Below, one piece after another: positions 21,060-41,558 of a stretch of DNA of 41,607 bases. The position numbers were made by a program, and so were the translations under genes. Position 1 is the stretch's first letter, and each line of letters begins with the position of its first letter. This DNA is from Lawsonibacter sp. Lineage in GTDB: Bacteria > Bacillota > Clostridia > Oscillospirales > Oscillospiraceae. Location: NCBI GenBank assembly GCA_022798855.1, contig JAAWNI010000002.1:1-41607 (forward strand). Direction: 5' to 3'. The notes below the pieces were generated by a model, which saw only the letters and a program-made list of their open reading frames with translations, was not told the DNA's origin and ran no database searches.

Positions 21060-22468
<1,409 letters not shown>

Positions 22469-22469
<1 letters not shown>

Positions 22470-22885
22470 TGGAGGTCTTTCAGGTACATATTCTGGCCGC
22501 GGACCGGACCTTTTATGAGGGGCCCTGCCTCAGCCTGACCATCCCCACCAACGACGGAGAGCTGGGGATCCTGGCCCACCACAGCAGCATGATTGCCGCC
22601 GTCCTGCCCGGCACGCTGCGCTATCAGGCTCCGGGCCAGCCCGTCCAGACGGCGGCGGTTTCCCCAGGGATGGTGAAGATCGCCCATAACGACGTGCTGG
22701 TGCTGGTGGATTCCGCCGAGCGCCCGGAGGAGATTGACGCCGCCCGGGCCCAGCGGGAGGCGGACGAAGCCCGGGAGATTTTGCTGCAAAAAAAGAGCCG
22801 TCAGGAGTACCAGATCGCCCAGGCCGCTCTGGCGCGGGCGCTGAACCGCCTGCAAGTGAAATCCGCCTACGGAAACCGGTTTTAA
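22469..22885 (+). CDS. atpC: F1Fo ATP synthase epsilon subunit
   Basis: VQVHILAADRTFYEGPC...PTNDGELGILAHHSSM; TGATG overlap with atpD. Confidence 0.93.
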
Positions 22886-23838: not shown

Positions 23839-26103
23839 ATGTTTCAACAGGTTGCTTTGGAAAAACTGGAGGATTATTTCAGGCCCCTTTCCGAACGGCG
23901 TGAGAGGTGCGTCTATTTTTACCGTTTTACTGGGCTCTCGCCGGAGGCGGCCGGTTTTATCCGGCGGTACTATGAGGCGGCGCTGCGGGGCGGCGTCGTC
24001 ATTGACGGGCGGCTCCCCAACCCGGACGCCGGACAGTTGGCGTATTTTTCCGAGATCATGGGGATGGATTTCCAAATGGACCGGGCCTTTTTATCCGCGA
24101 AACTGGGGAAATGGCTGCCCCGGATGTCCGCCGGACAGCGGGAAGCGGTGGTTTCCGCCATTTTTTATACCTTTGAGGACATGCTGCGCCGGGGCAAGAA
24201 TGAAAATATTTTGAAAAACGCGTATATAAAATATATGTGTTGGCTTTACTATAAATTTGAACGGATTGTCAATCAATTGGGCGGAGAAGTTCTCCCAAAA
24301 ATTCTCTATGACGGAGAGGTTAGCTATTACGAACTGCAACTTTTGACCGTCCTGTCAAAGGCTGGCGCCGACATCGTGGTATTGGAGCGGGGCAGCGGGT
24401 ATCATCAGTTGGACCCCGCTTCTGAATATTCCCGGCTCTACCAGGGGGAGGGTCTGGCCGGCTTTCCGCCCCAGTTCAGCTTAAAGGGGCTCCAGGCCGA
24501 GCTCACCCGGGAGGCGAACCGGCAGCGGCTGTACGGCCCCCTCCCCAAGGTGGAGGCCTGCACAAACGCTTGGATGAAGAAGCCGGAGCTGAGCGAGGCG
24601 CTGACCCCGGTGGGAGCCCGTGGCAGCGGGGAGGGGTTTTTCTACAACTGCTTCCTGGCGCAGTACGGCGTGTCGGACAAGCTCACCTTTTCCGGCGACC
24701 TTTTTGCTTTTTATAAGCGGCTGACGGGGGAGAAGCGGCGGGTCTGCGTGGTCAGCGGCGGGATTCCCATCCCCGCGCCGGAGGAGATCGCCGCCATTCA
24801 GCGGAAAAACTACGCCAATGTGGAGCAGCTGGCCGGCGGCCTGGCCCAAAATATCCGCTTTCCCGCTGATGCGGAGCTCCAGCGCCTTATGGTCAAGGCC
24901 TTTGTGGACCTTGTGCTGGACGGCGGGGGGCAGCCGGGGAACACCCTGCCCAAGATGACCAACCAGGCGGTCTACCTCCTGTGCTGGCTAAGGCGCTACC
25001 AGAAGGAGCTGTTTGCCGGCTGGAAGCTGCCGGAGGTTTCGGTGTTTATCCTCTTTGGACGGTGCGCCACAGACCCTGAAGCGCGGTTCCTGCGCCTGCT
25101 GGCGCGGCTGCCGGTGGATGTGCTGCTGATTCAGCCCAGCCTGAACGAGGGGGGCTGCCTGCGGGACGAGAACCTGCTGGAGCTGCGCCGTGAGAACTCC
25201 CTCGCGGTGAAGGAATTTCCCTCGGAGAACACGCAGGCGCGGGTGAGCACGGCGGCCTATCAGGCGGAGCGGGACCTGGACGACCTGATGTATCAGGACT
25301 CGGGGCTCTACCGGAATCAGCAGTACGCCAAGGCGGAGACGGTGATCCTCCGGACCATGTACGAGGAGATCGGGCTGCTCTGGGACCAGGAGCTGAAATA
25401 CCGGCCCACATTCCAGACGGCCAACGGCGTTGTGACCATCCCCGTGCTGCTGGAGAAGGTCTGCGGCGTGAAGGACGGGCAGACCGCCCAGTACTGGCAG
25501 GAAATCAAAAAGCTGATCACCCCGGACACCCTGGTGGTTTCCGGCCTGCCGTGGCTCAAACCCCTGGAGGGGAATCCCATCAAGCCCTACGCCACCCAGT
25601 TTTTGCACAACGGGAAGCTGCTGAAAAGCAAGATCAAGGGCCATAAGGCCTACCCCTACGGCATTTTGCGGGGGGAGATGCAGGACTATCTGCTGGACAA
25701 GCTCCAGCTGCTGCTGGACCGGCGGCTCATCGCGGGCACCTATCAGAACGGCACGGAGTATACCGCTGTGGCCGTGGCCCTGAATTTGAAAAAGGAACTC
25801 CTCCGGCTGATCCAGAAGTTTGACTTTACCAGGAAAAACCCCAAGCTGATTGTAATCAACACGGCGGAGGAGGTCCTGTCCCTGGAGGACAGCATCCAGT
25901 TCGCCTTCCTGAATCTGGTGGGGTTTGACATCCTCTTCTTTGTCCCCACGGGGTATCAGTGCATTGAGCGGTATTTTACCCAGCCTTTCGCCAACGAGCA
26001 GCAGATCGGCGAGTATCTTTACGACCTCGCCCCGCCTGATTTCAACACGGTCCAGACGCGGGGGCGCAATCCAATCAGAAAACTATTCGGAAGGAGCAAT
26101 TGA
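23839..26103 (+). CDS. YceG-like component of Ter-associated biosynthetic module (three internal domain repeats)
   Basis: 754 aa directly upstream of TelA and TerD genes, as in the Bacillus yceCDEFGH arrangement; internal repeats at about residues 93-190, 341-437 and 606-706. Confidence 0.65.
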   Translation: MFQQVALEKLEDYFRPLSERRERCVYFYRFTGLSPEAAGFIRRYYEAALRGGVVIDGRLPNPDAGQLAYFSEIMGMDFQMDRAFLSAKLGKWLPRMSAGQREAVVSAIFYTFEDMLRRGKNENILKNAYIKYMCWLYYKFERIVNQLGGEVLPKILYDGEVSYYELQLLTVLSKAGADIVVLERGSGYHQLDPASEYSRLYQGEGLAGFPPQFSLKGLQAELTREANRQRLYGPLPKVEACTNAWMKKPELSEALTPVGARGSGEGFFYNCFLAQYGVSDKLTFSGDLFAFYKRLTGEKRRVCVVSGGIPIPAPEEIAAIQRKNYANVEQLAGGLAQNIRFPADAELQRLMVKAFVDLVLDGGGQPGNTLPKMTNQAVYLLCWLRRYQKELFAGWKLPEVSVFILFGRCATDPEARFLRLLARLPVDVLLIQPSLNEGGCLRDENLLELRRENSLAVKEFPSENTQARVSTAAYQAERDLDDLMYQDSGLYRNQQYAKAETVILRTMYEEIGLLWDQELKYRPTFQTANGVVTIPVLLEKVCGVKDGQTAQYWQEIKKLITPDTLVVSGLPWLKPLEGNPIKPYATQFLHNGKLLKSKIKGHKAYPYGILRGEMQDYLLDKLQLLLDRRLIAGTYQNGTEYTAVAVALNLKKELLRLIQKFDFTRKNPKLIVINTAEEVLSLEDSIQFAFLNLVGFDILFFVPTGYQCIERYFTQPFANEQQIGEYLYDLAPPDFNTVQTRGRNPIRKLFGRSN

Positions 26104-26105
26104 CT

Positions 26106-27245
26106 ATGGGATTAGATTTTAACAGGCCCTCCTCCGGGCCGGCCCCCGTTTTGGAGGTGGCGCCCGCCCAGGGGCAGGAGGAGTACCAGGCCTACGACGT
26201 GGAGGCCGACAGAAGGCAGATGACCCAGATCATGGTCAATTCCCCCGAGGTGGACTCCCTGGCCAGCCAGATCGAGGTCTACAACCTGGAGACTATCGTG
26301 TCCTTCGGCAGCGGTGCGGCCGAGGAGATATCCAAGTGCTCAGACGTCATCCTGAACAGTATGAACATGTCCCAGCTGGACGACTCCAGCGCCATGCTCA
26401 CCACCCTGGCGAAAATCATGGACAAGTTCGACATTGAGGAGATCAAGGACAACCCCGGCCTGTTTGGAAAGCTGTTCGGCAATCTGCGCAGGCAGCTGGA
26501 TAAGATACTGGCCAAATACCACACCATGGGCGACGAGGTGGACAAGATTTATGTCCAGCTGAAGCAGTACGAGTCGGAGATCAAGCAGTCCAACCGGAAG
26601 CTGGAGGACATGTTCCAGGCCAACGTGGGCTACTACCACGAGCTGGTGAAGTATATCCTGGCCGGTGAGCAGGGCTGCCGGGAGCTGGAGGAGTACATCG
26701 CCCAGCGGAGGGCGGAGATGGAATCCACGGGGGACGCCTCCATCCAGTTTGACCTGACCACCCTGGAGCAGGCGCTGATGATGCTGGAGCAGCGCACCCA
26801 GGACCTGCGCACCGCCGAGAGCGTGGCGATGCAGTCCATCCCCATGATTAAGACCATGCAGTTCAGCAACATGAACCTGGTCAGAAAGATCAACTCCGCC
26901 TTTATCATCACCCTGCCTGTGTTCAAGCAGGCCCTGACCCAAGCCATCATGCTCAAGCGCCAGCGCATCCAGGCGGAGGCCATGTCCGCCCTGGACGACA
27001 AGACCAATGAGATGCTCATCCGCAACGCCCAGAACACCGCCGAGCAGTCCAAGATGACCGCCCGCCTGGCCTCCGGCAGCTCCATCAAGATCGAGACGCT
27101 GGAGAAGACCTGGCAGACCATCGTCAAGGGCATCGACGAGACGCGGCAGATTCAGGAGAACGCCCGCAAGCAGCGGGTGGACGACCAGAAGCGCCTGGAG
27201 ACGATCAAGGCGGAATTTAACAGCAGATACCACATGCCAAAATAA
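26106..27245 (+). CDS. TelA/YceH toxic-anion-resistance family protein
   Basis: GLFGKLFGNLRRQLDKILAKYHTMGDEVDKIYVQLKQYE...; MQSIPMIKTMQFSNMNLVRKINSAFIITLPVFKQALTQAI. Confidence 0.93.
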   Translation: MGLDFNRPSSGPAPVLEVAPAQGQEEYQAYDVEADRRQMTQIMVNSPEVDSLASQIEVYNLETIVSFGSGAAEEISKCSDVILNSMNMSQLDDSSAMLTTLAKIMDKFDIEEIKDNPGLFGKLFGNLRRQLDKILAKYHTMGDEVDKIYVQLKQYESEIKQSNRKLEDMFQANVGYYHELVKYILAGEQGCRELEEYIAQRRAEMESTGDASIQFDLTTLEQALMMLEQRTQDLRTAESVAMQSIPMIKTMQFSNMNLVRKINSAFIITLPVFKQALTQAIMLKRQRIQAEAMSALDDKTNEMLIRNAQNTAEQSKMTARLASGSSIKIETLEKTWQTIVKGIDETRQIQENARKQRVDDQKRLETIKAEFNSRYHMPK

Positions 27246-27272
27246 ATATTAAGAAAACGGAGGAATCAACTT

Positions 27273-27854
27273 ATGGCAATCAATCTGAGCAAGGGTCAGA
27301 AGGTAGATCTGACGAAGGGGAACCCGGGGCTTTCCAAAATTGTGGTTGGCCTGGGCTGGGACGTAAACGCCTTTGATTCCGGCGCCGCCTTCGACCTGGA
27401 CGCCGCCGCCTTTATGGTGGGCGGCAGCGGCAAGTGCCCAACCGAGAAGGAGTTTGTCTTCTACGGCAACCTGGAGCACCCCAGCGGCTCCCTGAAGCAC
27501 ATGGGCGACAACCTCACCGGCGAGGGCGACGGCGACGACGAGCAGATCGTGGTGGACCTGGCGAAGGTTCCCGCCAATGTGGAGCGCATCGCCTTCACCG
27601 TGACCATCTACGACGCCGAGTCCCGCAACCAGAATTTCGGCCAGGTGTCCAACTCCTATATCCACATTCAGGACATGGCCTCCGGCACGGACCTGATCCG
27701 CTATGACCTGGGGGAGGATTTCTCCATTGAGACGGCCATCGTGGTGGGCGAGCTGTACCGCTACAACGGCGAGTGGAAGTTCAACGCCATCGGCAGCGGC
27801 TTCCAGGGCGGCCTGGCGGCGCTGTGCGGCCACTACGGCATCGACGTTGCGTAA
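27273..27854 (+). CDS. TerD family protein (paralogue 1)
   Basis: [36 protein letters not shown] and [15 protein letters not shown] putative Ca2+-binding motifs. Confidence 0.96.
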
Positions 27855-27867
27855 AGGAGGGAGCGAT

Positions 27868-28449
27868 ATGCCTGTCAATCTGCAAAAGGGGCAGAAGGTA
27901 AGCCTATCAAAGAGCGCGCCCGGCCTGACAAAGGTGGTCGTGGGCCTGGGCTGGGACGTCAACCAGTTCGACACCGGCGGCGACTTCGACCTGGATGCCG
28001 CCGCCTTCCTCCTGGGGGACAGCGGCAAGGCCGCTAGCTCCAGCGACTTCGTGTTCTACGGCAACTTGAAGCACAGCTCCGGCGGCGTGGAGCATCTGGG
28101 CGACAACCTCACCGGCGCCGGCGACGGGGACGACGAGCAGATCAAAGTCGACCTGGCCAAGCTGCCCCCGTCCGTGACCCATGTGGCCTTTACCGCCACC
28201 ATCTACGACGCGGAAGCCCGCCGGCAGAATTTCGGCATGGTGAACAACGCCTTTATCCGGATTTACAACGAGGCCACCGGGGAGGAGCTGCTGCGGTATG
28301 ATTTGGGGGAGGACTTCTCCATTGAAACCGCCGTGGTGTTCGGCGAGCTCTACCGGAACAACGGCGAGTGGAAGTTCAACGCCATTGGCAGCGGCTACCA
28401 GGGCGGCCTGGCGGCGCTGTGCGCCAACTATGGCGTGGATGTGGAATAA
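27868..28449 (+). CDS. TerD family protein (paralogue 2)
   Basis: Same motifs: [38 protein letters not shown]. Confidence 0.96.
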
Positions 28450-28464
28450 GAGGAGGGGGAGCAC

Positions 28465-29070
28465 ATGGCAATCAGTCTGGAAAAAGGAAAAAAGGTCAGC
28501 CTGAAAAAGGGCGGGTCGGCCGGACTGGGCGAGATTCTGGTCAACCTGAATTGGAACACCAAGCCCGCCAAAAAGGGGCTGCTGGGCGGTTTGTTCGGCG
28601 GCGGCCAGGGGATTGATTTGGACCTGGGCTGTCTCTTCGAGCTCAAGGACGGCCGGAAGGGCGTGGTCCAGGCGCTGGGCAACGCCTTCGGCTCGCTGAA
28701 CCAGCCCCCCTACATCGCCCTGGACGGCGACGACCGCACAGGGGCGGTGACTACAGGGGAGAACCTGCGCATCGACGGCAACCAGATCGCCCTGTTCAAG
28801 CGGATACTGGTCTACACATTTATCTACGAGGGAGTCGCCAACTGGCAGCAGGCTGACGCTACGGTCACCATCAAGTACCCCGGCGCCGAGGATCTGATTG
28901 TAAAGATGGACTCCTACAACTCCAACGACATTATGTGCGGCCTGGTGCTGCTGGAGAATGTGAACGACGAGACGTTCAGTGTGGAAAAAATCGTGCAGTT
29001 CTACTCTGGCCACCCGGCGCTGGACGCCGCCTTCCACTGGGGGATGCGGTGGCAGGCCGGAAGAAAATAA
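28465..29070 (+). CDS. Divergent TerD-superfamily protein (paralogue 3) with Gly-rich insert
   Basis: ISLEKGKKVSLKKGGSAGLGEILVNLNWN; insert KKGLLGGLFGGGQG; IDLDLGCLFEL. Confidence 0.85.
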   Translation: MAISLEKGKKVSLKKGGSAGLGEILVNLNWNTKPAKKGLLGGLFGGGQGIDLDLGCLFELKDGRKGVVQALGNAFGSLNQPPYIALDGDDRTGAVTTGENLRIDGNQIALFKRILVYTFIYEGVANWQQADATVTIKYPGAEDLIVKMDSYNSNDIMCGLVLLENVNDETFSVEKIVQFYSGHPALDAAFHWGMRWQAGRK

Positions 29071-29092
29071 CATCAACTGGGAGGAATTTACC

Positions 29093-29695
29093 ATGTCTGT
29101 AAGCTTGCAGAAGGGCCAAAAGGTCAGTCTGACCAAGGACAACGCCGGGCTGGGTACGGTGGTCGCCGGCCTGGGCTGGGACGAGGTCAAGAAAAAAGGG
29201 GGATTTCTGGGCGGCCTGCTGGGCGGCGGCGGCCAGGCTGAGATCGACTGCGACGCCTCCGCGCTGCTGCTCCAAAACGGAAAGCTGATGGACAAAAAGG
29301 ACATCATCTTTTTCGGGAATTTGACCCACCCCTCCGGAACGGTCCGCCACATGGGCGACAACCTGACCGGCGCCGGCGACGGGGACGACGAGCAGATCGT
29401 CATCGACCTGGCCAACGTCCCCGCCGAGTACGACCGCATCGTGCTGGTGGTGAACATCTACCAGGCCGTTCAGCGGCGGCAGAATTTCGGCATGATCGAG
29501 AACGCGTTCATCCGCATTGTGGACGCGCGGAACAACCAGGAGCTGTGCAAGTACAATCTCACCGAGAACTACAACGGCATGACCGCCATGATTTTCGGCG
29601 AAATATACCGCCACAACGGCGAGTGGAAGTTCAACGCCATCGGACAGGGCACCACCGACCCCGGACTGGGCGAGCTGGTCGGCCGGTATATTTAA
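29093..29695 (+). CDS. TerD family protein (paralogue 4) with Gly-rich insert
   Basis: [29 protein letters not shown]; insert [31 protein letters not shown]. Confidence 0.94.
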   Translation: MSVSLQKGQKVSLTKDNAGLGTVVAGLGWDEVKKKGGFLGGLLGGGGQAEIDCDASALLLQNGKLMDKKDIIFFGNLTHPSGTVRHMGDNLTGAGDGDDEQIVIDLANVPAEYDRIVLVVNIYQAVQRRQNFGMIENAFIRIVDARNNQELCKYNLTENYNGMTAMIFGEIYRHNGEWKFNAIGQGTTDPGLGELVGRYI

Positions 29696-29780
29696 CGCTC
29701 TGCCTGTTATTTGAATCACAGGGAAGAGAGGAGGGCCTCAAGTCCTCCCTCTTTCCTGATATTTTAGAGGAGAAAAGCTC

Positions 29781-32426
29781 ATGCACTTCAATGGACTATC
29801 TGACAAGCAGGTTGCCGAATCCAAGGAAAAATATGGCAGCAACCTGATTCCTGACTCTGAACCGACCACCTTTTGGGCCGAATTTAAAGAGACTTTTGGC
29901 GACCCCATGATCCGGATTTTGCTGGCCATTGCGGTCCTGATGATTGCCATGTGCGCCTTTGGCTACGCGGAGATCTATGAGCCGGTGGGCACCATCGTTG
30001 CCGTTTTGATTGTGGCCTTTGTGTCGGCCAAGACGGGCGTGGCCAGCGACACGAAATACCGGGAACTGAAAGACAGCACGAAAAAGGACCAGTGCAAGGT
30101 CTACCGAAACGGCGTGATCTCCGTGATTGACGTGGACGACGTGGTGGTGGGCGACAAGGTTCTGCTCCAGTCGGGCGACAAGATTCCGGCGGACGGCGTG
30201 CTGGTCCGGGGCGGGCTGAAAGTGGATAATTCCGCCCTGAACGGCGAAGCTGAGGAGTGCGCCAAGACCGCGGCGGAGGGGGAGTTCCGCCTGGCGGAGG
30301 AGATCACAGGCGACACCTTTGTGGACGCCCACTCCCTGTTCCGGGGGGCGGTGCTCTTCGACGGCGAGGGCGTGATGGACGTTCAGAAGGTGGGCCTGTC
30401 CACCATGATGGGGAAGATGGCCCAGGAGATGCAGGACGATGAGCCGGACTCCCCCTTGAAAGTCAAGCTGTCCAAGCTGGCCGACATGATTTCCCGGTTC
30501 GGGTATATCGGCGCCGTTGTGATCGCGGTGATGTATCTGGGCTATTTTGTCCTGTCCGCCGGCGGGTTCGGGCCCTACTTTGCCCAGGACGCGGCTGAAA
30601 TCATCAAGGACGTGGTGGAAGCGGTGTCCCTGGCCATTGTGATTATTGTCTGCGCGGTGCCCGAGGGCCTGCCCCTGATGATATCCCTGGTGCTGATGCA
30701 GAACACCAGCAAAATGCTGGACCACAACGTACTGGTGAGGAAGGCGGAGGGCATTGAGACGGCCGGCTCCCTAAACATCCTGTTCAGCGACAAGACGGGC
30801 ACCATCACAAAGGGCCACCTGGAGGTGGTGGAGTTCTTCACCGCCGACGGCATCTCCATCCCCCTTGCGGAGCTGGCCCAGCACGGCAAGATCAAGGGCC
30901 TGCTGGACCTGGCCATCGGAAAAAATACCCAGTCCATGTTTGACGCCGGGGGCCGGGTGATCGGCGGCAACGCCACGGACCAGGCCTTGGTGAAGTTCCT
31001 GGGGGCGGACGTGCTCAACCGGCTGGCGGAGACTTACACCGCCGCGCGGACCCAGAGCTTCAACTCCGCCAACAAGTTCAGCCAGGCCTACCTCCAGGAG
31101 CTGGGCAAGACCTTTTACAAGGGTGCGCCGGAGAAGTTTTTGGCCTCCTCCGGAAAGTACCTCAGCCTGAACGGAGACATCCACGTGGTGGACCCGGACC
31201 AGCTCAGCGCGAAGATCGACGAGCTGGCCGGCCGGTCCATGCGCGTGCTGGCCTTTGGCTACTCCGACCGGGAGATGACGGTGGACCAGATTAACTCCGA
31301 CACCACTTTGATCGGCTTCTTTGGGATTCGGGACGATGTCCGGCCGGAGGCCCGGGAGGCCATCGCCGCGGTGCAGGACGCGGGAATCCAGGTGGTGATG
31401 ATCACCGGGGACCGGCTGGAAACCGCGGTGGCCATCGCCAAGGACGCGGGCCTGCTGAAATCCCAGAACGACGTGGCGCTGACCTCCGGCCAGCTGGGCA
31501 AGCTGTCCGACGAGGAGGTCAAGGAGCTCATCCCCAGGATTCGGGTGATTGCCCGGGCCCTGCCCACCGACAAGTCCAGAATGGTCCGGCTCTGCCAGGA
31601 GATGAACCTGGTGGTGGGCATGACCGGCGACGGCGTCAACGACTCCCCCGCCTTGAAGCGGGCCGATGTGGGCTTTGCCATGGGCAGCGGCACGGAAGCG
31701 GCCAAGGAGGCCGGCAAGATTGTGGTCCTGGACGACAATTTCCGGTCCATTAAGGACGCCATCTGGTATGGCCGTACCATTTATCACAACATTTTGAAGT
31801 TCTGCAAGTTCCAGCTGGTAATCAATGTGGCCGCCGTTGTGGTCAGCGCCATCGCCCCCTTCTTCGGGGTGGAGGAGCCCTTGAAGGTGACCCATCTGCT
31901 GTTTGTCAACCTGGTAATGGACGGCCTGGGGGCCATCATGCTGGGCAACGAGCCGGCCCAGGAGCGCTATATGCAGGAAAAACCCCGCAGAAGGGACGAG
32001 AGCATTGTCAGCAAGGCTATGATGGTCCAGATTGTGGCCATGGGCATATGGCTGACCGTTTTGAGCTTTATCTTCCTGAAGCTCCCCCTTTTCGACCAGT
32101 TCTTCGACACGATGGAGCAGAAGCTCTCGGCCTACTTTGTGCTGTTTATCTGGGCCGCCCTGTTCAACGGCTTTAACGTCAGGGACGAGGGCTTTGATAT
32201 CTTCAAGGGCCTGAACGAGAACACAGGCTTTATGAAGGTGTTTATTGCCATCATCCTGGTGCAGGCGGTGATTGTGAACGCCGGGCTGATCCCCGTGGCC
32301 GCCTTCGGCTGGATTGGAAACATGTTCAGCTGCGTCCCATTCAGCGCCGTTGGCTGGTGCGTGGTGGCGGCGCTGGCCGTGACGATGATTCCAGTGGATA
32401 TGGTCCGGAAGATGATTTTTAAGTAA
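29781..32426 (+). CDS. P-type ATPase, P2 (PMCA-like) calcium-translocating
   Basis: CAVPEGLPLMISLVLM (M4), FSDKTGTITKG phosphorylation site, GMTGDGVNDSPALKRADVGFAMG, NLVMDG (M6). Confidence 0.92.
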   Translation: MHFNGLSDKQVAESKEKYGSNLIPDSEPTTFWAEFKETFGDPMIRILLAIAVLMIAMCAFGYAEIYEPVGTIVAVLIVAFVSAKTGVASDTKYRELKDSTKKDQCKVYRNGVISVIDVDDVVVGDKVLLQSGDKIPADGVLVRGGLKVDNSALNGEAEECAKTAAEGEFRLAEEITGDTFVDAHSLFRGAVLFDGEGVMDVQKVGLSTMMGKMAQEMQDDEPDSPLKVKLSKLADMISRFGYIGAVVIAVMYLGYFVLSAGGFGPYFAQDAAEIIKDVVEAVSLAIVIIVCAVPEGLPLMISLVLMQNTSKMLDHNVLVRKAEGIETAGSLNILFSDKTGTITKGHLEVVEFFTADGISIPLAELAQHGKIKGLLDLAIGKNTQSMFDAGGRVIGGNATDQALVKFLGADVLNRLAETYTAARTQSFNSANKFSQAYLQELGKTFYKGAPEKFLASSGKYLSLNGDIHVVDPDQLSAKIDELAGRSMRVLAFGYSDREMTVDQINSDTTLIGFFGIRDDVRPEAREAIAAVQDAGIQVVMITGDRLETAVAIAKDAGLLKSQNDVALTSGQLGKLSDEEVKELIPRIRVIARALPTDKSRMVRLCQEMNLVVGMTGDGVNDSPALKRADVGFAMGSGTEAAKEAGKIVVLDDNFRSIKDAIWYGRTIYHNILKFCKFQLVINVAAVVVSAIAPFFGVEEPLKVTHLLFVNLVMDGLGAIMLGNEPAQERYMQEKPRRRDESIVSKAMMVQIVAMGIWLTVLSFIFLKLPLFDQFFDTMEQKLSAYFVLFIWAALFNGFNVRDEGFDIFKGLNENTGFMKVFIAIILVQAVIVNAGLIPVAAFGWIGNMFSCVPFSAVGWCVVAALAVTMIPVDMVRKMIFK

Positions 32427-32440
32427 ATGTTCATTAGACA

Positions 32441-32473
32441 CAAGGGCTTCCCCGGTCTTGGGGAAGCCCCTTG
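32441..32473 (+). terminator. Hairpin between P-type ATPase and rhomboid gene
   Basis: caagggcttccccggtcttggggaagccccttg. Confidence 0.6.
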
Positions 32474-32504
32474 CCGGACACTTTAGATAGGCGGGTGGAG
32501 TGCC

Positions 32505-33074
32505 GTGAAAAAACTGCAATACAATTCGCCGGTGGTCCTCAGCTATTTTCTGATCTCCCTGCTGGCGCTGGGCTTGGGGTATCTGACGGACGGCTGGACA
32601 ACCTGGCACCTTTTTTCTGTCTACCGGTCGCCGCTGGCCGACCCTCTGACCTATGTCCGATTTTTCGGCCATGTCCTGGGCCACGCGGACCTGGATCATT
32701 TCCTGGGCAATATGCTGCTGATGCTGGTGGTGGGGCCGCCGCTGGAGGAGAAGTACGGCAGCTCCACGCTGCTGGCGGGCATCGCCCTGACGGCCCTGGT
32801 TTCCGGGCTGCTCCAATTCATATTCTTCCCCGGCGCGGCGCTGCTGGGGGCCAGCGGAATCGTGTTTATGCTCATTATGCTGTCCTCCCTGTCCGGCATG
32901 AAGAGCGGCGGGATTCCTCTGACCCTGTTGCTGGTGGCCCTGCTGTATCTGGGCCAGGAGGTCTATTCCATCCTCTTCGTGCGGGACAGCGTGGCCAACT
33001 TCATGCACATCGTGGGCGGCGCCTGCGGGACGCTTTTCGGCTTCGCCCTGGCGAAAAAGGGCCAAAAATTTTAG
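32505..33074 (+). CDS. Rhomboid-family intramembrane serine protease
   Basis: LGHADLDHFLGNMLLM, GASGIVFMLIM (catalytic Ser), NFMHIVGGACGTLFGF (catalytic His); multi-TM; GTG start. Confidence 0.85.
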   Translation: MKKLQYNSPVVLSYFLISLLALGLGYLTDGWTTWHLFSVYRSPLADPLTYVRFFGHVLGHADLDHFLGNMLLMLVVGPPLEEKYGSSTLLAGIALTALVSGLLQFIFFPGAALLGASGIVFMLIMLSSLSGMKSGGIPLTLLLVALLYLGQEVYSILFVRDSVANFMHIVGGACGTLFGFALAKKGQKF

Positions 33075-33114
33075 GGCTGTTTGACGGGCGTCAGTTGGCC
33101 CCACACAAAACGGA

Positions 33115-34260
33115 GTGATGCTTATGCCGGACTATTCCCAAAACGATCTCCTGCGGGTGGCCAAGCGGGTCCGCAACGCCAAAAGGAGCTACCTCCTGGT
33201 CAACCCGCTCCAGGGGAAGCACATCCCGGTGAGTCCGGCGAGGTCCCTGGAGATGATGAATACCCTGGGGGGCCGTCTGGCCGAAGCATATCCGGGGGCC
33301 CGCCTGGTCATCGGCTTTGCCGAGACGGCGACGGCCATCGGCGCGGCGGTGGCCAGCCGGTTCCCGGGGGAGTGCGTGTACCTGCACACCACCCGGGAGG
33401 AGCCCCCCCAGGTGGGGGAGTGGGTGCTGTTCTCTGAGGAGCACAGCCACGCTGTGGAGCAGAAGCTCTGCGGGGACAGCCTTGCCCGCTGGCTTGAGGA
33501 CACGGAGAGCGTCATCCTTGTGGACGACGAGATTTCCACCGGAAAGACCCTAATCAATATGGTCCGGCAGCTCCGGGAAAGATACCCCGCCCTCTGGAGC
33601 AAAAAGCTGGTGGCGGCCTCTCTGCTGAACCGGGTTTCGCCGGAGCACGAGGAGCGGCTGGCGGAAGCGGGTATCCGCTGCGAGTATCTGGTCAAGGTGG
33701 TGGATGATGGAGCCGATGAGGCCGCCGCCCTCCTCCAGGTGGAGGAAGCCGGCCCTGCGGAGGGGGCGGACAGGGCCTTTGGGCGGATGTCTCTGGACTG
33801 CGGCCCGTTCCCAGACCCCCGGGAGGGGGTACGGATCCAGGACTATCTGGCCTACTGCCAGGGGCTGGCCCGGGCCTTTTTGTCCCGCGCCGGACTTGCC
33901 GGCATGGAGCGGGTGGTGGTGCTGGGGACGGAGGAGTGCATGTACCCCGCCCTTGTCCTGGGCCGAATGCTGGAGGAGCGGGGCCTGTCCGTAAAGTGCC
34001 ACGCCACCACCAGAAGCCCCATCGGAATCTGCGGCCGGCCTGGCTACCCCATTACGTCCGGGAAGAAGCTCAGCAGCTTCTACGGGGGCCAGCGGGACAC
34101 CTACATTTATAATATCTCCCCCTGCGACGGGCTGATTGTGGTGTCGGACGCCCCCGTCTGCCAGACGAAGGCGCTGAACCAGCTGGCCGCCCTCTGGGAG
34201 GAGCGGGGCTGCAAGCGGATTTTTTTCATTCAGGGAGGAAGCGATGTTTGGTACTTATAG
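33115..34260 (+). CDS. Phosphoribosyltransferase with C-terminal TRSP domain (Ter biosynthetic module)
   Basis: PRPP-binding VILVDDEISTGKT; C-terminal CHATTRSPIGICG; operon context. Confidence 0.85.
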   Translation: MMLMPDYSQNDLLRVAKRVRNAKRSYLLVNPLQGKHIPVSPARSLEMMNTLGGRLAEAYPGARLVIGFAETATAIGAAVASRFPGECVYLHTTREEPPQVGEWVLFSEEHSHAVEQKLCGDSLARWLEDTESVILVDDEISTGKTLINMVRQLRERYPALWSKKLVAASLLNRVSPEHEERLAEAGIRCEYLVKVVDDGADEAAALLQVEEAGPAEGADRAFGRMSLDCGPFPDPREGVRIQDYLAYCQGLARAFLSRAGLAGMERVVVLGTEECMYPALVLGRMLEERGLSVKCHATTRSPIGICGRPGYPITSGKKLSSFYGGQRDTYIYNISPCDGLIVVSDAPVCQTKALNQLAALWEERGCKRIFFIQGGSDVWYL

Positions 34261-35296
34261 AGACGGCGACGTCAAAATACTGCTGAAAGACATCACCGGC
34301 ATGGTGGAGCCCCTGGGGACCCGGGAGCGGGAGGAGCGAATCCAGGGGGGCGTGCACTACTCGGAGATGCTGCCCATCGAATACGTGCCCTCGCCCGCCT
34401 ACTTGTCGGCCTACCGGGACGCCCTGGCCAGATACGCCGGCATGACGGCGGAAGCAGTGGCCGCTGTGGCCGAACAGATATGGCGGGACAAGGGGGAGAA
34501 CGCGGCGCTTGTCTCCCTGGCCCGGGCGGGCACCCCGATCGGCGTTTTGATCAAGCGGTATCTGGCCTTCCGGTACAACGCCGCGGTGGAGCACTACACC
34601 ATTTCCATCATCCGTGGGCGGGGCATTGACCATGTGGCGATGGAGTACATTTTGAAGCGGCACAGGCCGGAGCACATTCAGTTTGTGGACGGCTGGACCG
34701 GGAAGGGGGCCATTCAAAATGAGCTGAATCAGGCCATGAGGGAGTACCCGGGCGTGGAACCCGGCCTTGCGGTCCTGTCCGACCCGGGCCTGCTGGCCGG
34801 AAAGCGGGGGACCCACGACGACTTCCTCATCGCCAGCTCCTGCCTGAACGCCACGGTGTCCGGCCTGCTGAGCCGCACCTTTTACCGAAAGGACATCATC
34901 GGCCCCGGCGAGTTCCATGGGGCGGCCTTTTACAGGGAACTGATGGATGAGGATTTGACCTACTCCTTCATTGACGCTGTGGAGCGCCGCTTTCCGCCGG
35001 AGGGCGGCTGTCCGGAGGGGGCGCCCGACGCCTCCGCCAGCGCCGGGGAGGAGATTGACGGCATCTGCGCCCGCTTCGGGATTGGTGACCGGAATCTGGT
35101 GAAGCCTGGAATCGGAGAAGCCACCCGGGTGCTCCTGCGCCGGGTGCCCTGGAAGGTCCTGGTCCACAGCCTGAGCGACGAGGACCACCTGGGGCACCTC
35201 TATCAGCTGGCGGAGGAGAAGGGGGTCCCGCTGGAGGAGTACCCACTGGCGCGCTACCGGGCCTGCGGCCTAATCCGCGCCCTGGCGGATAATTGA
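34244..35296 (+). CDS. StiP-family PRTase-like protein (Ter biosynthetic module)
   Basis: IQGGVHYSEMLPIEYVPS, HIQFVDGWTGKGAIQNEL (PRPP-loop-like); overlaps upstream PRTase by 17 nt. Confidence 0.8.
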   Translation: MFGTYRDGDVKILLKDITGMVEPLGTREREERIQGGVHYSEMLPIEYVPSPAYLSAYRDALARYAGMTAEAVAAVAEQIWRDKGENAALVSLARAGTPIGVLIKRYLAFRYNAAVEHYTISIIRGRGIDHVAMEYILKRHRPEHIQFVDGWTGKGAIQNELNQAMREYPGVEPGLAVLSDPGLLAGKRGTHDDFLIASSCLNATVSGLLSRTFYRKDIIGPGEFHGAAFYRELMDEDLTYSFIDAVERRFPPEGGCPEGAPDASASAGEEIDGICARFGIGDRNLVKPGIGEATRVLLRRVPWKVLVHSLSDEDHLGHLYQLAEEKGVPLEEYPLARYRACGLIRALADN

Positions 35297-35297
35297 G

Positions 35298-36098
35298 ATG
35301 GGCGGGGTCTTATTTGCCAGCGACCTGGACAACACTCTGTTATTCTCCCACAGGCATAGGCAGGACACGGACCGGTGCGTGGAGTATCTGGAGGGGAAGG
35401 AGCAGGGGTTCTTCACCCGGCGGTCGCTGGAGCTGCTGCCCCTGGTGCGCCAGCGGGCGCTGTTTGTCCCGGTGACCACCCGGTCGGTAGCCCAGTACCG
35501 GCGCATCATGTGGCCGGAGTCCTGCGCCCCCCGGTACGCGGCGGCGGCCAATGGTGGAATCCTGCTGGTGGACGGGGAGGAGGATCAAGCGTGGTCCGCC
35601 CGGACCCGGGAGCTGGCCGCCCCCTGGCGGGAGGAGCTGCTGGAGCTGCTCGGCCGCCTGCCGGAAGCCCCTATGCTGAGGCGCTGCCGGATGGTGGATG
35701 GCCTGTACCTCTTCGCCGCCTGCGACGACGGGGAGAGCGCCCAGGCCGGCGGGCGCTTTTTCGCGGGCCGGACCACTCTGGACATCCAGGTGTCGGGGCG
35801 GAAGGCCTACTTTTTTCCGCCGCCGCTGAATAAGGGGATGGCTGTCGCCCGGCTGAAGGAGAGATTCCAGCCGGAGAAGACGGTCTGCGCCGGCGACAGC
35901 GTAATCGACGTGCCAATGCTCCGGGCCGGAGACGTGGCGCTCCTTCCCAGCGGGGAGCTGCTGGGGGAGGGGGGCGGACTGCGGGTCCACAGCGGAGGCG
36001 GGCGGTTCCCGGACTTCGTCCTGGAATCTGTGCTGAAAGAGATACCGCCGCCTTGGCCTTCGGGAGGGGCGGCGGCAAGTGATGAAGAGGTTTTCTAA
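35298..36098 (+). CDS. HAD-superfamily phosphatase
   Basis: FASDLDNTLLFS motif I; VCAGDSVIDVPML C-terminal motif. Confidence 0.88.
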   Translation: MGGVLFASDLDNTLLFSHRHRQDTDRCVEYLEGKEQGFFTRRSLELLPLVRQRALFVPVTTRSVAQYRRIMWPESCAPRYAAAANGGILLVDGEEDQAWSARTRELAAPWREELLELLGRLPEAPMLRRCRMVDGLYLFAACDDGESAQAGGRFFAGRTTLDIQVSGRKAYFFPPPLNKGMAVARLKERFQPEKTVCAGDSVIDVPMLRAGDVALLPSGELLGEGGGLRVHSGGGRFPDFVLESVLKEIPPPWPSGGAAASDEEVF

Positions 36099-36100
36099 CA

Positions 36101-37063
36101 ATGAGTCGAGAGATTACTGGTTATGACGTGGGCGCTCTGATGTACTGCCCCGCCAACGGCCACAAGGGCATTGTGGACGCGCTGCGGGAGGAGCGGTTTT
36201 CCCGCCCCTTTTCCCTGGCCTTCTGCCTGGAGGACACGGTGCGGGAGGACGCGGTGGAGTTGGCGGAGAGGGAGCTGTACCAGACCCTGGAGCGCATCAC
36301 AGCCGCCCGGAGGGAGGGATATTTTTACCTCCCCCTGATTTTTGTGCGGGTCCGCTCGCCCAGGCAGATGGAGGAGCTGGCACACCGGTTCCGCCCTTTC
36401 TCTGATATTCTGACGGGCTTTATCCTGCCCAAGTTTTTCATTGAGAACTGCGGCGCGTATATTGAGGTGATACAAGGGGCCGGGGCGGATTACTACTATA
36501 TGCCCATCTTTGAGTCCGCATCCATGATCGACCTCCGGCACCGGTACGACCGTCTGGCTGAGGTCAGGGACCGCATGGAAGCTGTGTCCGGCCGGATTTT
36601 GAACGTCCGGGTGGGGGGAAACGACTTTTCCCACGCCTTTGGCCTGCGGCGGCAGGTGGATCAGACAATCTATCAGCTCCGGCCCGTGGCCAGCCTGCTC
36701 ACCGACATCGTGACCACCTTTGCCAGCCGCTATGTGGTGGCCGGTCCGGTCTGGGAGTACTTTGCTGGAAGCGGCTGGGAGTCCGGCCTGCGGCGGGAGA
36801 TGGAGCTGGACCTGCTGTGCGGCTTTGTGGGTAAGACCGTCATCCACCCCAACCAGATTGCGGTGGTCAACGACTGCCTGAAGGTCTCCGCCGCGGACTA
36901 TCAGGACGCGTGCCATATTCTGAACTGGGAGCCGGACAGCTTCCAACTGGTGTCCTCCAGCGCGGAATCGACCCGGATGAACGAGTACAACACCCATTTC
37001 CGCTGGGCGGACCGGATCGTCCGTCTGGCGCAGGTGTATGGAGTCAAGGACAGCCCGGCCTGA
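36101..37063 (+). CDS. HpcH/HpaI aldolase / CitE-like C-C bond lyase (Ter biosynthetic module)
   Basis: LMYCPANGHKGIVDALREE, SLAFCLEDTVRED, VRVGGNDFSHAFGLRR, GKTVIHPNQIAVVN. Confidence 0.85.
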   Translation: MSREITGYDVGALMYCPANGHKGIVDALREERFSRPFSLAFCLEDTVREDAVELAERELYQTLERITAARREGYFYLPLIFVRVRSPRQMEELAHRFRPFSDILTGFILPKFFIENCGAYIEVIQGAGADYYYMPIFESASMIDLRHRYDRLAEVRDRMEAVSGRILNVRVGGNDFSHAFGLRRQVDQTIYQLRPVASLLTDIVTTFASRYVVAGPVWEYFAGSGWESGLRREMELDLLCGFVGKTVIHPNQIAVVNDCLKVSAADYQDACHILNWEPDSFQLVSSSAESTRMNEYNTHFRWADRIVRLAQVYGVKDSPA

Positions 37064-37134
37064 GGGACGGACGCAAGATTTATCCACAACCGCACAAATA
37101 CAGGTTCTCAATCATGGTAAAGGAGCGCGGTTTT

Positions 37135-38520
37135 ATGAACGGCCAGCACTTTCAAACAGCAGTCAGGCGGCCCACTGGCGACGCGCTGGAGGAGTTCATG
37201 CTGCTGAACGGAAGGTATTCCAATTTCACTAAGGAAACTTTCTTTATCCGGTACGTCAGCAAGGGGAGCTATGAGGAAAACGCGGCCCGGCTCCAGAGCT
37301 GGACGGAGGGGGGCGGAGCCCGGGAGCGGGGCTTTGTCTTCGAGAGGGCCATGGCCAGCCAGCCCCCCAGGGAAAAGGTGGAGCGCTATTTGGCGCTGTA
37401 CCACGGCGGAGCGGTGGAGTTTCCCTTCCGTTTTCAGAACATGATGTGGCAGAAGGCGCTGGAGCGGAGCTTCGCCCAGGTCCTGGAGCTGTTTAAACAG
37501 GCGCGGGGCCGCAGCGAGGACTCCATTGTGAGAAATTTTGCCGTCAAGCTCCTCTACTGGATGGATACATATTTTCCCAGGCTGTTTGTGGAGACGGCGA
37601 AAATGAACCGGTTCCCCAAGTTCGCCTGCGGCGGCGGCGTCAAGCTGGCGGAGTACCTGTTTTTGTACCTCCTTTGGCTTTTGGGGTGCGACGTGCTCTA
37701 CCTCAGCGCCGGGGAGGATGTTTCCGTCAGCAATCCGGAGCTGCTGGCCCTGTCCCTGCGGATTGAGGACGCCGCCCCGCCGCCCGTCTGCCGTCCGGCG
37801 AGCACGGAGCGTGAAAACGCCCCCAGCGGCAGGGTGGTGATTACCATGGACAGCGTCCGAAGGCCGGAGCGCCACAGGACGGCCCCGCCCCAGCCTGCGG
37901 CGGCTCCTACAGCGGCCCCTGTCCTCCGCCAGGGCGGAGGGGCCCGCCAGCCCCTGGAGTTTGAGGAGCTGGCGAAAATCGCCTCCTCGGTGGTGATGCT
38001 GCGGGTGTTTGACCAGAGGGACCAGTGCTTTAAAACCGGGTCCGGCGTCATCATCAGCGAGAAGGGGTATGTGCTCACCAACATGCACGTGGTCAACGGC
38101 GGGCGCTACTACGGAATCATGCTGGAGGAGGAGACAGACGTCTTTTACACCGACGAGTTGATCAAGTACCACCAGGATTACGACCTGGCGGTCCTCCGCA
38201 TGGAGAAGCGCAGGCGGCCGGTTCCCATCTCCAAGGGGGGGAAGGGGCTGGTCAGAGGGCAGAAGGTGGTGGCCATCGGCAGCCCGCTGGGCCTGTTCAA
38301 CTCTGTCTCGGACGGCATTATCTCGGGGTTCCGGGACATGGAAAAGGTGTCCATGATTCAGTTTACCGCTCCGGTGTCCCACGGCAGCAGCGGCGGCGCC
38401 CTTCTGGATATGTACGGGGAGCTGGTCGGCCTGATTACCGCGGGATTTGACGACGGGCAGAACTTGAATCTGGCGGTGGGCTGTCAGACCATCGCTCAAT
38501 TTGTACGAGGATTGATTTAA
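37135..38520 (+). CDS. Trypsin/HtrA-like serine protease with N-terminal YceG-like domain and Pro/Ala-rich linker
   Basis: Catalytic triad LTNMHVV (H318), YDLAVLRM (D350), GSSGGALL (S419); no signal peptide. ATG 37135 follows AAGGAG; the track ORF begins earlier. Confidence 0.9.
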   Translation: MNGQHFQTAVRRPTGDALEEFMLLNGRYSNFTKETFFIRYVSKGSYEENAARLQSWTEGGGARERGFVFERAMASQPPREKVERYLALYHGGAVEFPFRFQNMMWQKALERSFAQVLELFKQARGRSEDSIVRNFAVKLLYWMDTYFPRLFVETAKMNRFPKFACGGGVKLAEYLFLYLLWLLGCDVLYLSAGEDVSVSNPELLALSLRIEDAAPPPVCRPASTERENAPSGRVVITMDSVRRPERHRTAPPQPAAAPTAAPVLRQGGGARQPLEFEELAKIASSVVMLRVFDQRDQCFKTGSGVIISEKGYVLTNMHVVNGGRYYGIMLEEETDVFYTDELIKYHQDYDLAVLRMEKRRRPVPISKGGKGLVRGQKVVAIGSPLGLFNSVSDGIISGFRDMEKVSMIQFTAPVSHGSSGGALLDMYGELVGLITAGFDDGQNLNLAVGCQTIAQFVRGLI

Positions 38521-38991: not shown

Positions 38992-40248
38992 TCATACCTT
39001 CCCGATATCGGTGCGGAAGTGCATATCCTGGAAGGAAATGGGCTTGGCGGCGGCGTAGGCGGCGGCGATGGCCTGCTCCAGGGTGGAGCCGGTGGCGGTG
39101 ACGCCTAAGACCCGGCCGCCGGCGGTTAGGATTTCCCCGTTTTCCGCCTTGGTCCCGGCGTGGAAGACGGTGGCCCCCAGCGCTTCGGACTCCGCCAGGC
39201 CGGAGATGGGATGGCCGCTTTGGTACTTCACCGGGTAGCCCCCGGAAGCCAGCACCAGACAGCAGGCGGCTCCGTCCTTCCACTTTATGTCAACCTGATC
39301 CAGGGTGCCGTCCACACAGGCCTGGAAAATGTCCATCAGGTCGGAGTCCAGCATGGACAGGATGGGCTGAGTCTCCGGGTCGCCGAAGCGGGCGTTGTAC
39401 TCCACCACCCTGGGGCCGTCCTTGGTTAACATAAGGCCGAAGTAGATGACCCCCTTGAAGGGACGGCCCTCCGCCTTTAACGCGGCCACCGTGGGCAGGA
39501 AGATCTCCCTCACGCACCGGTCCGCAATCTCCGGCGTGTACTTGGGGGAGGGGCAGAAGGCCCCCATTCCTCCGGTGTTGGGGCCCTGGTTGCCGTCATA
39601 GGCCCGCTTGTGGTCCTGGCTGGACAGCATGGGGGCCAGGTGCTCCCCGTCGCAGAAGGCCAGCACCGTCACCTCAGGGCCTGTCATGCACTCCTCAATG
39701 ACCACAGTGGAGCCCGATTCGCCGAACTTCTTGTCCTCCATCATCTCCCGGACGGCGGTTTCCGCTTCCTCCACCGTGGAAGCCACCACCACGCCCTTGC
39801 CCAGGGCCAGGCCGTCCGCCTTGACCACGATGGGCGCGCCCTGCTCCCGGATGTAGGCCAGGGCGCTGTCCAGGTCGGTGAAGGTCTTATACCTGGCGGT
39901 GGGGATGTGGTATTTTTTCATCAATTCCTTGGAAAAGGCCTTGCTGGCCTCGATGATGGCGGCGTTGGCCCGGGGGCCGAAGGCGGGGATGCCCGCTTGT
40001 TCCAGGGCGTCCACCATCCCCAGGGCCAGGGGGTCGTCGGGGGCCACCATAACAAAGTCCATGGCGTTTTCCTTGGCCCACTTGACCATCCCATTCACAT
40101 TAGTGGCCTTGATGGGCACGCACTCCGCCACCTGGGCGATGCCCCCGTTGCCCGGGGCGCAGTACAACTCGGTCACTTTTGGCGACTGGGCCAGCTTCCA
40201 GCAGATGGCGTGCTCCCGGCCGCCGCCGCCTACGACTAAAACTTTCAT
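38992..40248 (-). CDS. purD: Phosphoribosylamine--glycine ligase
   Basis: MKVLVVGGGGREHAICWKLAQSP; ATP-grasp; NTGGMGAFCPSP; VVEYNARFGDPETQ. Confidence 0.97.
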   Translation of the reverse strand: MKVLVVGGGGREHAICWKLAQSPKVTELYCAPGNGGIAQVAECVPIKATNVNGMVKWAKENAMDFVMVAPDDPLALGMVDALEQAGIPAFGPRANAAIIEASKAFSKELMKKYHIPTARYKTFTDLDSALAYIREQGAPIVVKADGLALGKGVVVASTVEEAETAVREMMEDKKFGESGSTVVIEECMTGPEVTVLAFCDGEHLAPMLSSQDHKRAYDGNQGPNTGGMGAFCPSPKYTPEIADRCVREIFLPTVAALKAEGRPFKGVIYFGLMLTKDGPRVVEYNARFGDPETQPILSMLDSDLMDIFQACVDGTLDQVDIKWKDGAACCLVLASGGYPVKYQSGHPISGLAESEALGATVFHAGTKAENGEILTAGGRVLGVTATGSTLEQAIAAAYAAAKPISFQDMHFRTDIGKV

Positions 40249-40265
40249 ACTACGTTCTCCTTTTA

Positions 40266-40433
40266 TCAGTCTCGACTGCCGATCCAGTAACAGCCTGCGC
40301 CTACCACAGCGGCGAGATAGCAGATGCTTTTTGAGATCTCATCAAAAAAAGGTGTGGTGAGAGGTTCGGCTAAAAACAATATTAGAAAAAAGAGAGCCAA
40401 GGAAATGCCGCCCCGAATCAACTTCTGCTGCAT
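40266..40433 (-). CDS. Small two-TM membrane protein (55 aa), MQQKLIRGGISLALFFLILFLAEPLTTPFFDEISKSICYLAAVVGAGCYWIGSRD
   Basis: ATG preceded by gaggagg; lies between the purH and purD stop/start on the same strand; two hydrophobic segments. Absent from the ORF track (too short). Confidence 0.7.
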   Translation of the reverse strand: MQQKLIRGGISLALFFLILFLAEPLTTPFFDEISKSICYLAAVVGAGCYWIGSRD

Positions 40434-40445
40434 ACCAATTCCTCC

Positions 40446-41558
40446 TCAATGATGGAACAGCCGCATACCGGTAAAGACCATGACCATGCCGTATTTGTCG
40501 GCAGTCTCAATAACCTGGTCGTCCCGGATGGAGCCGCCGGGCTGGGCGATATACACCACCCCAGACTGGTGGGCCCGTTCCACGTTGTCTCCGAAGGGGA
40601 AGAAGGCGTCGGAGCCCAGAGTGACGCCCTCCAGTTTGGCAATCCAGTCCGCTTTTTCCTTCTGGGTGAGGACATCAGCGATGAAGGCGTCAATGGCGTT
40701 GTCCCGGTCGGGGCGGCGGACGTTCTCCGAGAAGGGGAGGGCCAGCACCTTGGGGTGCCGACGCAGCCACCAGATATCCGCCTTGTTTCCCGCCAGACGG
40801 GTGCAGTGGATGCGGCTCTGCTGTCCAGCCCCTACGCCAATGGTCATGCCGTCCTTGACGTAGCACACCGAGTTGGACTGGGTGTATTTCAGGGTAATCA
40901 GGGCCAGCAGCATGTCGTTTTTGGCGCTCTGGGGCAGGTCCTTATTTCGAGTGACGATATTTTTCAGCATGTCCTCCGTAATGGCCAGGTCGTTGTACCC
41001 CTGCTCGAAGGTGATTCCGAAGATGTTTCGCCGCTCAATGGGAGCGGGGGTGTACTCTGGGTCGATTTTGACCACGTTGTAGCCGCCCTTGCGCTTGGTC
41101 TTGAGGATCTCCAGGGCCTCGTCGGTGTAGCCGGGGGCAATCACGCCGTCGGACACCTCCAGCGCCAGGAAGCGGGCGGTGTCTCCGTCGCAGGTGTCGG
41201 ACAGCGCCGCCCAGTCCCCAAAGGAGCACAGCCGGTCGGCCCCCCGGGCCCGGATGTAGGCGCAGGCGATAGGGGAGAGGTCCCCCTCGGGGGCCAGGTA
41301 CATCAGCCGCTCTGTGTCGTTCAGGGGCAGGCCCAGGGCCGCGCCGGCGGGGGAGACGTGCTTGAAGGAGGCCGCCGCCGGCAGACCGGTGGCCTGTTTC
41401 AGCGCCTTCACCAGCTGCCAGGAGTTCAGCGCGTCCATAAAATTGATGTACCCCGGCTTGCCGTTGAGCACCTCCAGGGGAAGCTTGCCCTGCTCCATAA
41501 AGATGCGGGCCGGCTTCTGGTTGGGGTTGCAGCCGTATTTCAGTTCCAGTTCGGTCAT
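40446..41558 (-). CDS. purH: Standalone AICAR formyltransferase (PurH AICARFT domain without IMP cyclohydrolase)
   Basis: ELKYGCNPNQKPA, ASFKHVSPAGAA, IGVGAGQQSRIHCTRLA, SDAFFPFGDNVERA; 370 aa lacking the MGS-like IMPCH domain. Confidence 0.9.
   Translation of the reverse strand: MTELELKYGCNPNQKPARIFMEQGKLPLEVLNGKPGYINFMDALNSWQLVKALKQATGLPAAASFKHVSPAGAALGLPLNDTERLMYLAPEGDLSPIACAYIRARGADRLCSFGDWAALSDTCDGDTARFLALEVSDGVIAPGYTDEALEILKTKRKGGYNVVKIDPEYTPAPIERRNIFGITFEQGYNDLAITEDMLKNIVTRNKDLPQSAKNDMLLALITLKYTQSNSVCYVKDGMTIGVGAGQQSRIHCTRLAGNKADIWWLRRHPKVLALPFSENVRRPDRDNAIDAFIADVLTQKEKADWIAKLEGVTLGSDAFFPFGDNVERAHQSGVVYIAQPGGSIRDDQVIETADKYGMVMVFTGMRLFHH

Follow-up and report, generated by a model that had tools for sequence, protein, structure and literature searches.

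A Ter-type gene cluster occupies 23839-38520 (+ strand) of the window (the whole stretch of Lawsonibacter sp. DNA analysed, 41,607 nucleotides), which belongs to an assembly of 2.19 Mb that is 75% complete and has Lawsonibacter and Pseudoflavonifractor as nearest named relatives. The last gene of the cluster encodes a fusion of one full YceG_bac domain (PF14266), a linker, and an HtrA-like protease. YceG here refers to the B. subtilis-type YceG_bac family, which we take to be distinct from E. coli YceG/MltG. The genes of the cluster and the parts of the fusion gene are as follows:

23839..26103, + strand: YceG with three YceG_bac repeats (Pfam, genome scan), relatives of the fusion domain
26100..27245, + strand: TelA (Pfam), its start overlapping the YceG stop
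27273..29695, + strand: four TerD-family genes (27273, 27868, 28465 divergent, 29093)
29781..32426, + strand: P-type ATPase, Ca2+ (PMCA-type)
32505..33074, + strand: rhomboid-family membrane protease (Pfam)
33115..34260, + strand: PRTase_2-TRSP (Pfam)
34244..35296, + strand: StiP-PELOTA_1 (Pfam)
35298..36098, + strand: HAD-type phosphatase
36101..37063, + strand: C-C_Bond_Lyase (PF15617; Pfam), 71 bp upstream of the fusion gene
37135..38520, + strand: YceG-domain/S1C serine protease fusion gene, 461 aa (alternative start 37114)
37177..37749, + strand: single YceG_bac domain, residues ~15-205 (Pfam core 37438-37719)
37771..37959, + strand: disordered Pro/Ala/Arg-rich linker, residues ~213-275 (from pLDDT, composition, motif count, and evolutionary rate)
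37963..38517, + strand: S1C/Trypsin_2 (HtrA-like) protease domain with the triad H318-D350-S419, without PDZ

The best start of the fusion gene is the ATG at 37135, with AAAGGAG about 11 nt upstream. The components of Ter-linked biosynthetic/stress modules, i.e., YceG, TelA, TerD, PRTase_2-TRSP, StiP-PELOTA_1, HAD, and C-C lyase, are all encoded in this cluster; such modules are reportedly the subject of work by Anantharaman, Iyer and Aravind in 2012. The third TerD-family protein (28465-29070) is divergent (31.7 bits vs 258-284 for its neighbours), and clear equivalents were found only in close relatives (L005-L007, L039, and L111). Two more proteases are predicted in the cluster, the rhomboid (32505-33074) and StiP (34244-35296; a 'cysteine protease' per Pfam). 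On one side, at 21066-22885, the cluster is flanked by genes for ATP synthase subunits (alpha/beta and delta/epsilon), and on the other, at 38992-41558 on the - strand, by purine biosynthesis-like genes (PurD-like and PurH/IMP cyclohydrolase-like, as identified by eye only).

In the N-terminal half of the window protein, Pfam detected YceG_bac with 47.1 bits (E 3.1e-12; curated cut-off 25 bits), and a whole-genome scan recovered the same stretch. At least eight orthologues also exceed this cut-off, and the most diverged ones score weaker (L041, L042, L044, and L045 fall just to well below it). The Pfam model is matched at near full length by the orthologue L075 at positions 25-227 (E 7e-24) and by L113 at positions 26-198. 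An N-terminal profile (residues 1 to ~212) built from 14 fusion sequences (the window protein and 13 orthologues from genome collections, aligned together) was then compared by hhalign with the three repeats of YceG. Residues 15-200 of the profile matched repeat 1 (E 2.5e-22), residues 35-206 matched repeat 2 (E 1.9e-26), and repeat 3 was matched only faintly (E 0.0056); the protease domain, which served as a negative control, was not matched (E 0.54). Repeats 1 and 2 were still matched without L075, the most YceG-like orthologue (E 1e-20 and 6e-25, respectively), and with the seven closest sequences alone (E 1e-13 and 5e-21). According to hhalign and the Pfam matches of L075 and L113, the homology spans the whole domain, beyond its C-terminal half.

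The fusion protein and the three-repeat YceG were modelled in separate AlphaFold2 runs, with pLDDT mostly 80-96 for the YceG part of the fusion and a mean pLDDT of 85.9 for YceG. In the hhalign register, the secondary structure of the fusion domain agrees with that of repeats 1 and 2 at 79%, whereas slid registers gave 40% on average and 58-64% at most. The fusion domain and YceG have a predicted helix/strand order in common (beta-alpha-beta-(alpha)-alpha-alpha-beta-alpha-beta), as well as the motif PK...G..K..E..FL..L...GCDVLY. Based on the agreement in secondary structure, the fusion domain and YceG repeats 1 and 2 are predicted to have the same fold.

The initial annotation had proposed a YceG-type domain at the protease N-terminus, on which Pfam, hhalign, and secondary structure now agree; it had named a lack of relation in HHsearch or structure as the counter-evidence, and the relation to repeats 1 and 2 was found instead. 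The residues it quoted are present (FPFRF begins at residue 96, 37420), and both the fusion and YceG conserve the repeat pattern it described (hydrophobic helix, P-K, G, E, hL, G-C-D-V-L-Y). Its pairing of the strand GFVFERAMASQPPREKV with VVIDGRLPNPDAG and RVCVVSGGIPIPAPEEI was reproduced in an unsupervised alignment, where they lie opposite each other. The extent given, 37222-37740 (residues 30-202), lies inside the domain but is too short, the domain covering residues ~15-205.

In a tree of the fusion domains with YceG repeats 1 and 2, all 14 fusion domains form one clade outside both repeats (97/93; 97% of bootstrap trees) and are therefore an old, separate branch of single origin. This separate clade also rules out that the fusion domain was recently copied from the neighbouring YceG. 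Repeat 3 carries the motif PTGYxxIE, of which P703 and E710 are invariant among 24 YceG proteins. None of the 14 aligned fusion sequences has the complete motif, and its P and E are not retained together in the fusion domain, repeat 1 or repeat 2. Given the lack of this 'P...E' motif, the fusion domain is read as a docking or sensing part, i.e., a putative binding or scaffold unit, and repeat 3 would carry the specific function of YceG itself. In the YceG of the window (23839-26103), repeat 3 is the most conserved and has invariant residues missing from repeats 1 and 2, and where YceG proteins of other lineages have two domains, these align to repeats 2 and 3; together, these observations suggest that repeat 3 is probably the functional core. 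A low-confidence linker (residues 466-494) lies between repeats 2 and 3 of the three-repeat protein.

A Foldseek search of the three-repeat model against the PDB returned helicase/KaiC-like matches alone, with a TM of about 0.1, and profile searches of the PDB for YceG gave no credible match; we therefore assign no fold to YceG. The fusion shares with the B. subtilis-type YceG_bac family (PF14266) the domain unit, the predicted order of elements, the core motif, and the gene cluster. YceG proper, in contrast, consists of two or three domains in tandem, one of them repeat 3, and the fusion, with a single domain and a protease, is not assigned to it. In one genome (G528, L080:1032-1910), a 293-aa ORF near a contig end has a single YceG domain of the repeat-3 kind without a protease, and may be a YceG gene fragment.

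The other half of the fusion protein matches Trypsin_2 (PF13365; E 5e-25), with H318, D350, and S419 in order within the match and invariant in the 14 sequences. Its closest solved relatives in the PDB are Deg1, DegS, DegP, and the S1C domain of RsgI9. The protease fold, the triad, the GSSGG active-site loop, and the AIGSPLG loop are the same as in HtrA/DegP/DegS (S1C). However, unlike these the fusion has neither a PDZ domain (no Pfam match; nothing follows the protease domain) nor a signal peptide or N-terminal anchor, and it scores 109 bits against the NCBIfam DegP/HtrA model vs a cut-off of 416. The regulatory place is occupied by the YceG domain, at the opposite end. The C. thermocellum RsgI9 S1C-NTF2 protein (PDB 7sjy) is also a clostridial S1C protease fused to a non-PDZ partner, but this partner is NTF2-like, the context is that of an anti-sigma factor, and neither a YceG domain nor a Ter cluster is involved. 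PADLOC matched the fusion to RT-Protease_XI (E 2e-15) and LmuA (E 3e-6), systems with which it has the trypsin-like domain in common but not the reverse transcriptase or Lamassu partner. Membership in a defence system was rejected because these matches are confined to the protease part.

The N-terminal hydropathy maximum is 0.02 in the window protein and at most 0.78 in the orthologues, and hydropathy revealed no export signal or membrane anchor in any of them. The sole hydrophobic peak of the fusion protein falls within the YceG core; a membrane anchor formed by the hydrophobic LFLYLLWLLGCDVLYL was rejected, as this segment is the conserved helix-strand of that core. Without a PDZ domain, N-terminal signal or anchor, the fusion is an S1C protease rather than a canonical HtrA, and its location is probably cytoplasmic.

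Judged by dN/dS, the protease is under the strongest purifying selection (0.07-0.14), the YceG domain is also clearly constrained (0.18-0.34), and the weakest constraint is on the linker (0.29-0.62), which is the fastest-evolving segment of the protein and has a pLDDT below 50. The motif [VI]xI(S/P)...R recurs in the linkers of orthologues (8 matches vs a shuffle mean of 1.3, for a pattern written post hoc). It was seen at 37771-37959 and in the linkers of L005-L008, L041-L045, L111, and L112, with the form VxIS(R/M)xx(I/L)xRPxR in the close clade and VxIPPxPxR, in up to three copies, in the distant clade. The motif was dropped as an established shared docking site, the pattern having been defined after looking, and is a lead only to a possible docking or self-cleavage site.

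A total of 17 intact fusions were identified, i.e., in the window and at L005-L008, L039-L045, L074, L075, L111, L112, and L130. All except one adjoin Ter/YceG/TelA or PRTase/StiP/C-C-lyase genes, and the gene order varies: the fusion may follow C-C lyase, follow HAD, lie between StiP and HAD, or diverge from C-C lyase, HAD or TerD, which makes at least four arrangements. In the exception (G447), the fusion and YceG genes are on different contigs. Across a sample of 396 genomes of the order, multi-repeat YceG was detected in only 18 and the fusion in 10, and every genome with the fusion also had multi-repeat YceG (hypergeometric 2e-15, kinship of genomes ignored). The tie of the protease to the YceG system suggested in the initial annotation is supported by conserved gene linkage (16/17 intact copies) and co-occurrence (10/10 genomes), which also mark the fusion as a probable component of the Ter/TelA module.

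The fusion was absent from 8 of the 18 YceG genomes of the order, indicating that it is dispensable, an accessory. A diverged copy in another genome (G1048, L129:8711-10461) is split over two frames by a shift and lies away from the TerD genes, and multi-repeat YceG was not found in that genome; this is as expected if the fusion depends on YceG, in a single case. The YceG part of the fusion had no match in a plasmid and phage search, and carriage by either was dropped. No account of a YceG-protease fusion was found in the literature searched, which did not include the 2012 Ter review, and we do not claim priority.

Genomic context supports well a functional tie between the protease and the YceG module. 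As the front half of the protease consists of one YceG domain, of which the YceG protein of the cluster has three, the enzyme is probably recruited or switched by the stress system. We consider it likely (probability about 0.72) that the fusion is a dedicated cytoplasmic protease of the YceG/TelA/TerD stress module, with a YceG domain that docks onto the module or shares its ligand, and with limited cleavage as the output. The YceG domain, which the flexible linker joins to the S1C protease with its complete active site, would most likely dock onto the assembly of multi-repeat YceG and TelA, or bind what this assembly binds, and a limited set of proteins would be cut at the time or place of module activity. 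Docking or sensing by the YceG domain, regulated cleavage, and the cytoplasmic location are inferred here. Several points weigh against this reading: in G447 the fusion is on another contig than its YceG genes, the fusion is dispensable in the order, and a similar fold is no guarantee of a shared partner.

Alternatively, the YceG domain may bind the proposed nucleoside-like product of the module or a metal-stress signal and switch the protease on, a tentative reading modelled on the second messengers that switch effectors in bacterial conflict systems. The PRTase_2-TRSP, StiP, HAD, and C-C lyase genes are linked in most fusion copies, and HtrA-type proteases are typically allosteric, both of which favour such gating. 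Trypsin-like proteases are also frequent as regulated parts of bacterial conflict systems, among whose putative nucleotide-binding domains is TerD (PMC7159879). However, no YceG ligand is on record, no nuclease or toxin-like partner was found near the fusion gene, and the PADLOC matches cover the protease part only. Nor is there a strict need for the biosynthetic genes, as one genome (G274) has the fusion and TerD/TelA/YceG without a StiP match. We rate it as rather unlikely that the YceG domain senses a product made or a signal given by the Ter biosynthetic module, with the protease as a ligand-gated intracellular effector that turns Ter stress sensing into cleavage of a specific target.

Constitutive docking or maturation fits equally well as gating. 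Here, the YceG domain would be a permanent dock, and the protease would trim or clear YceG/TelA/TerD complexes as maturation or quality control without sensing any signal. The resemblance of the fusion domain to repeats 1 and 2 of its partner would suit it to join or mimic the assembly, the YceG linker (residues 466-494) is within possible reach of the protease, and with a rhomboid and StiP in the cluster proteolysis may be a theme. The eight YceG-positive genomes of the order without the fusion speak against this reading, since YceG maturation in general must be independent of it, and we regard it as tentative to the same degree as gating. A convergent or trivial likeness of an ordinary HtrA beside a ter cluster, to which the hydrophobic core helices and strands of the YceG domain and the tendency of distant, generic alpha/beta domains to look alike might point, is highly improbable, being contradicted by the Pfam score above cut-off, the specific hhalign matches with their clean negative control, the secondary-structure agreement, the shared PK...GCDVLY motif, the near-full-length L075 and L113 matches, and the conserved linkage.

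The preferred reading of a dedicated module protease bears on Ter/TelA/YceG modules, whose proteins are known to contribute to tellurite, peroxide, and antimicrobial-peptide tolerance but for which, to our knowledge, there is no agreed biochemistry. B. anthracis yceGH mutants are reported to show raised sensitivity to peroxide and cathelicidin (cited in PMC4633105). With a protease that bears the YceG domain, the module gains an enzyme whose output can be read directly as cut or not cut, and an S419A trap mutant is a means of naming its substrate. To learn what YceG binds, one YceG domain on its own offers an easier starting point than the protein with three repeats.
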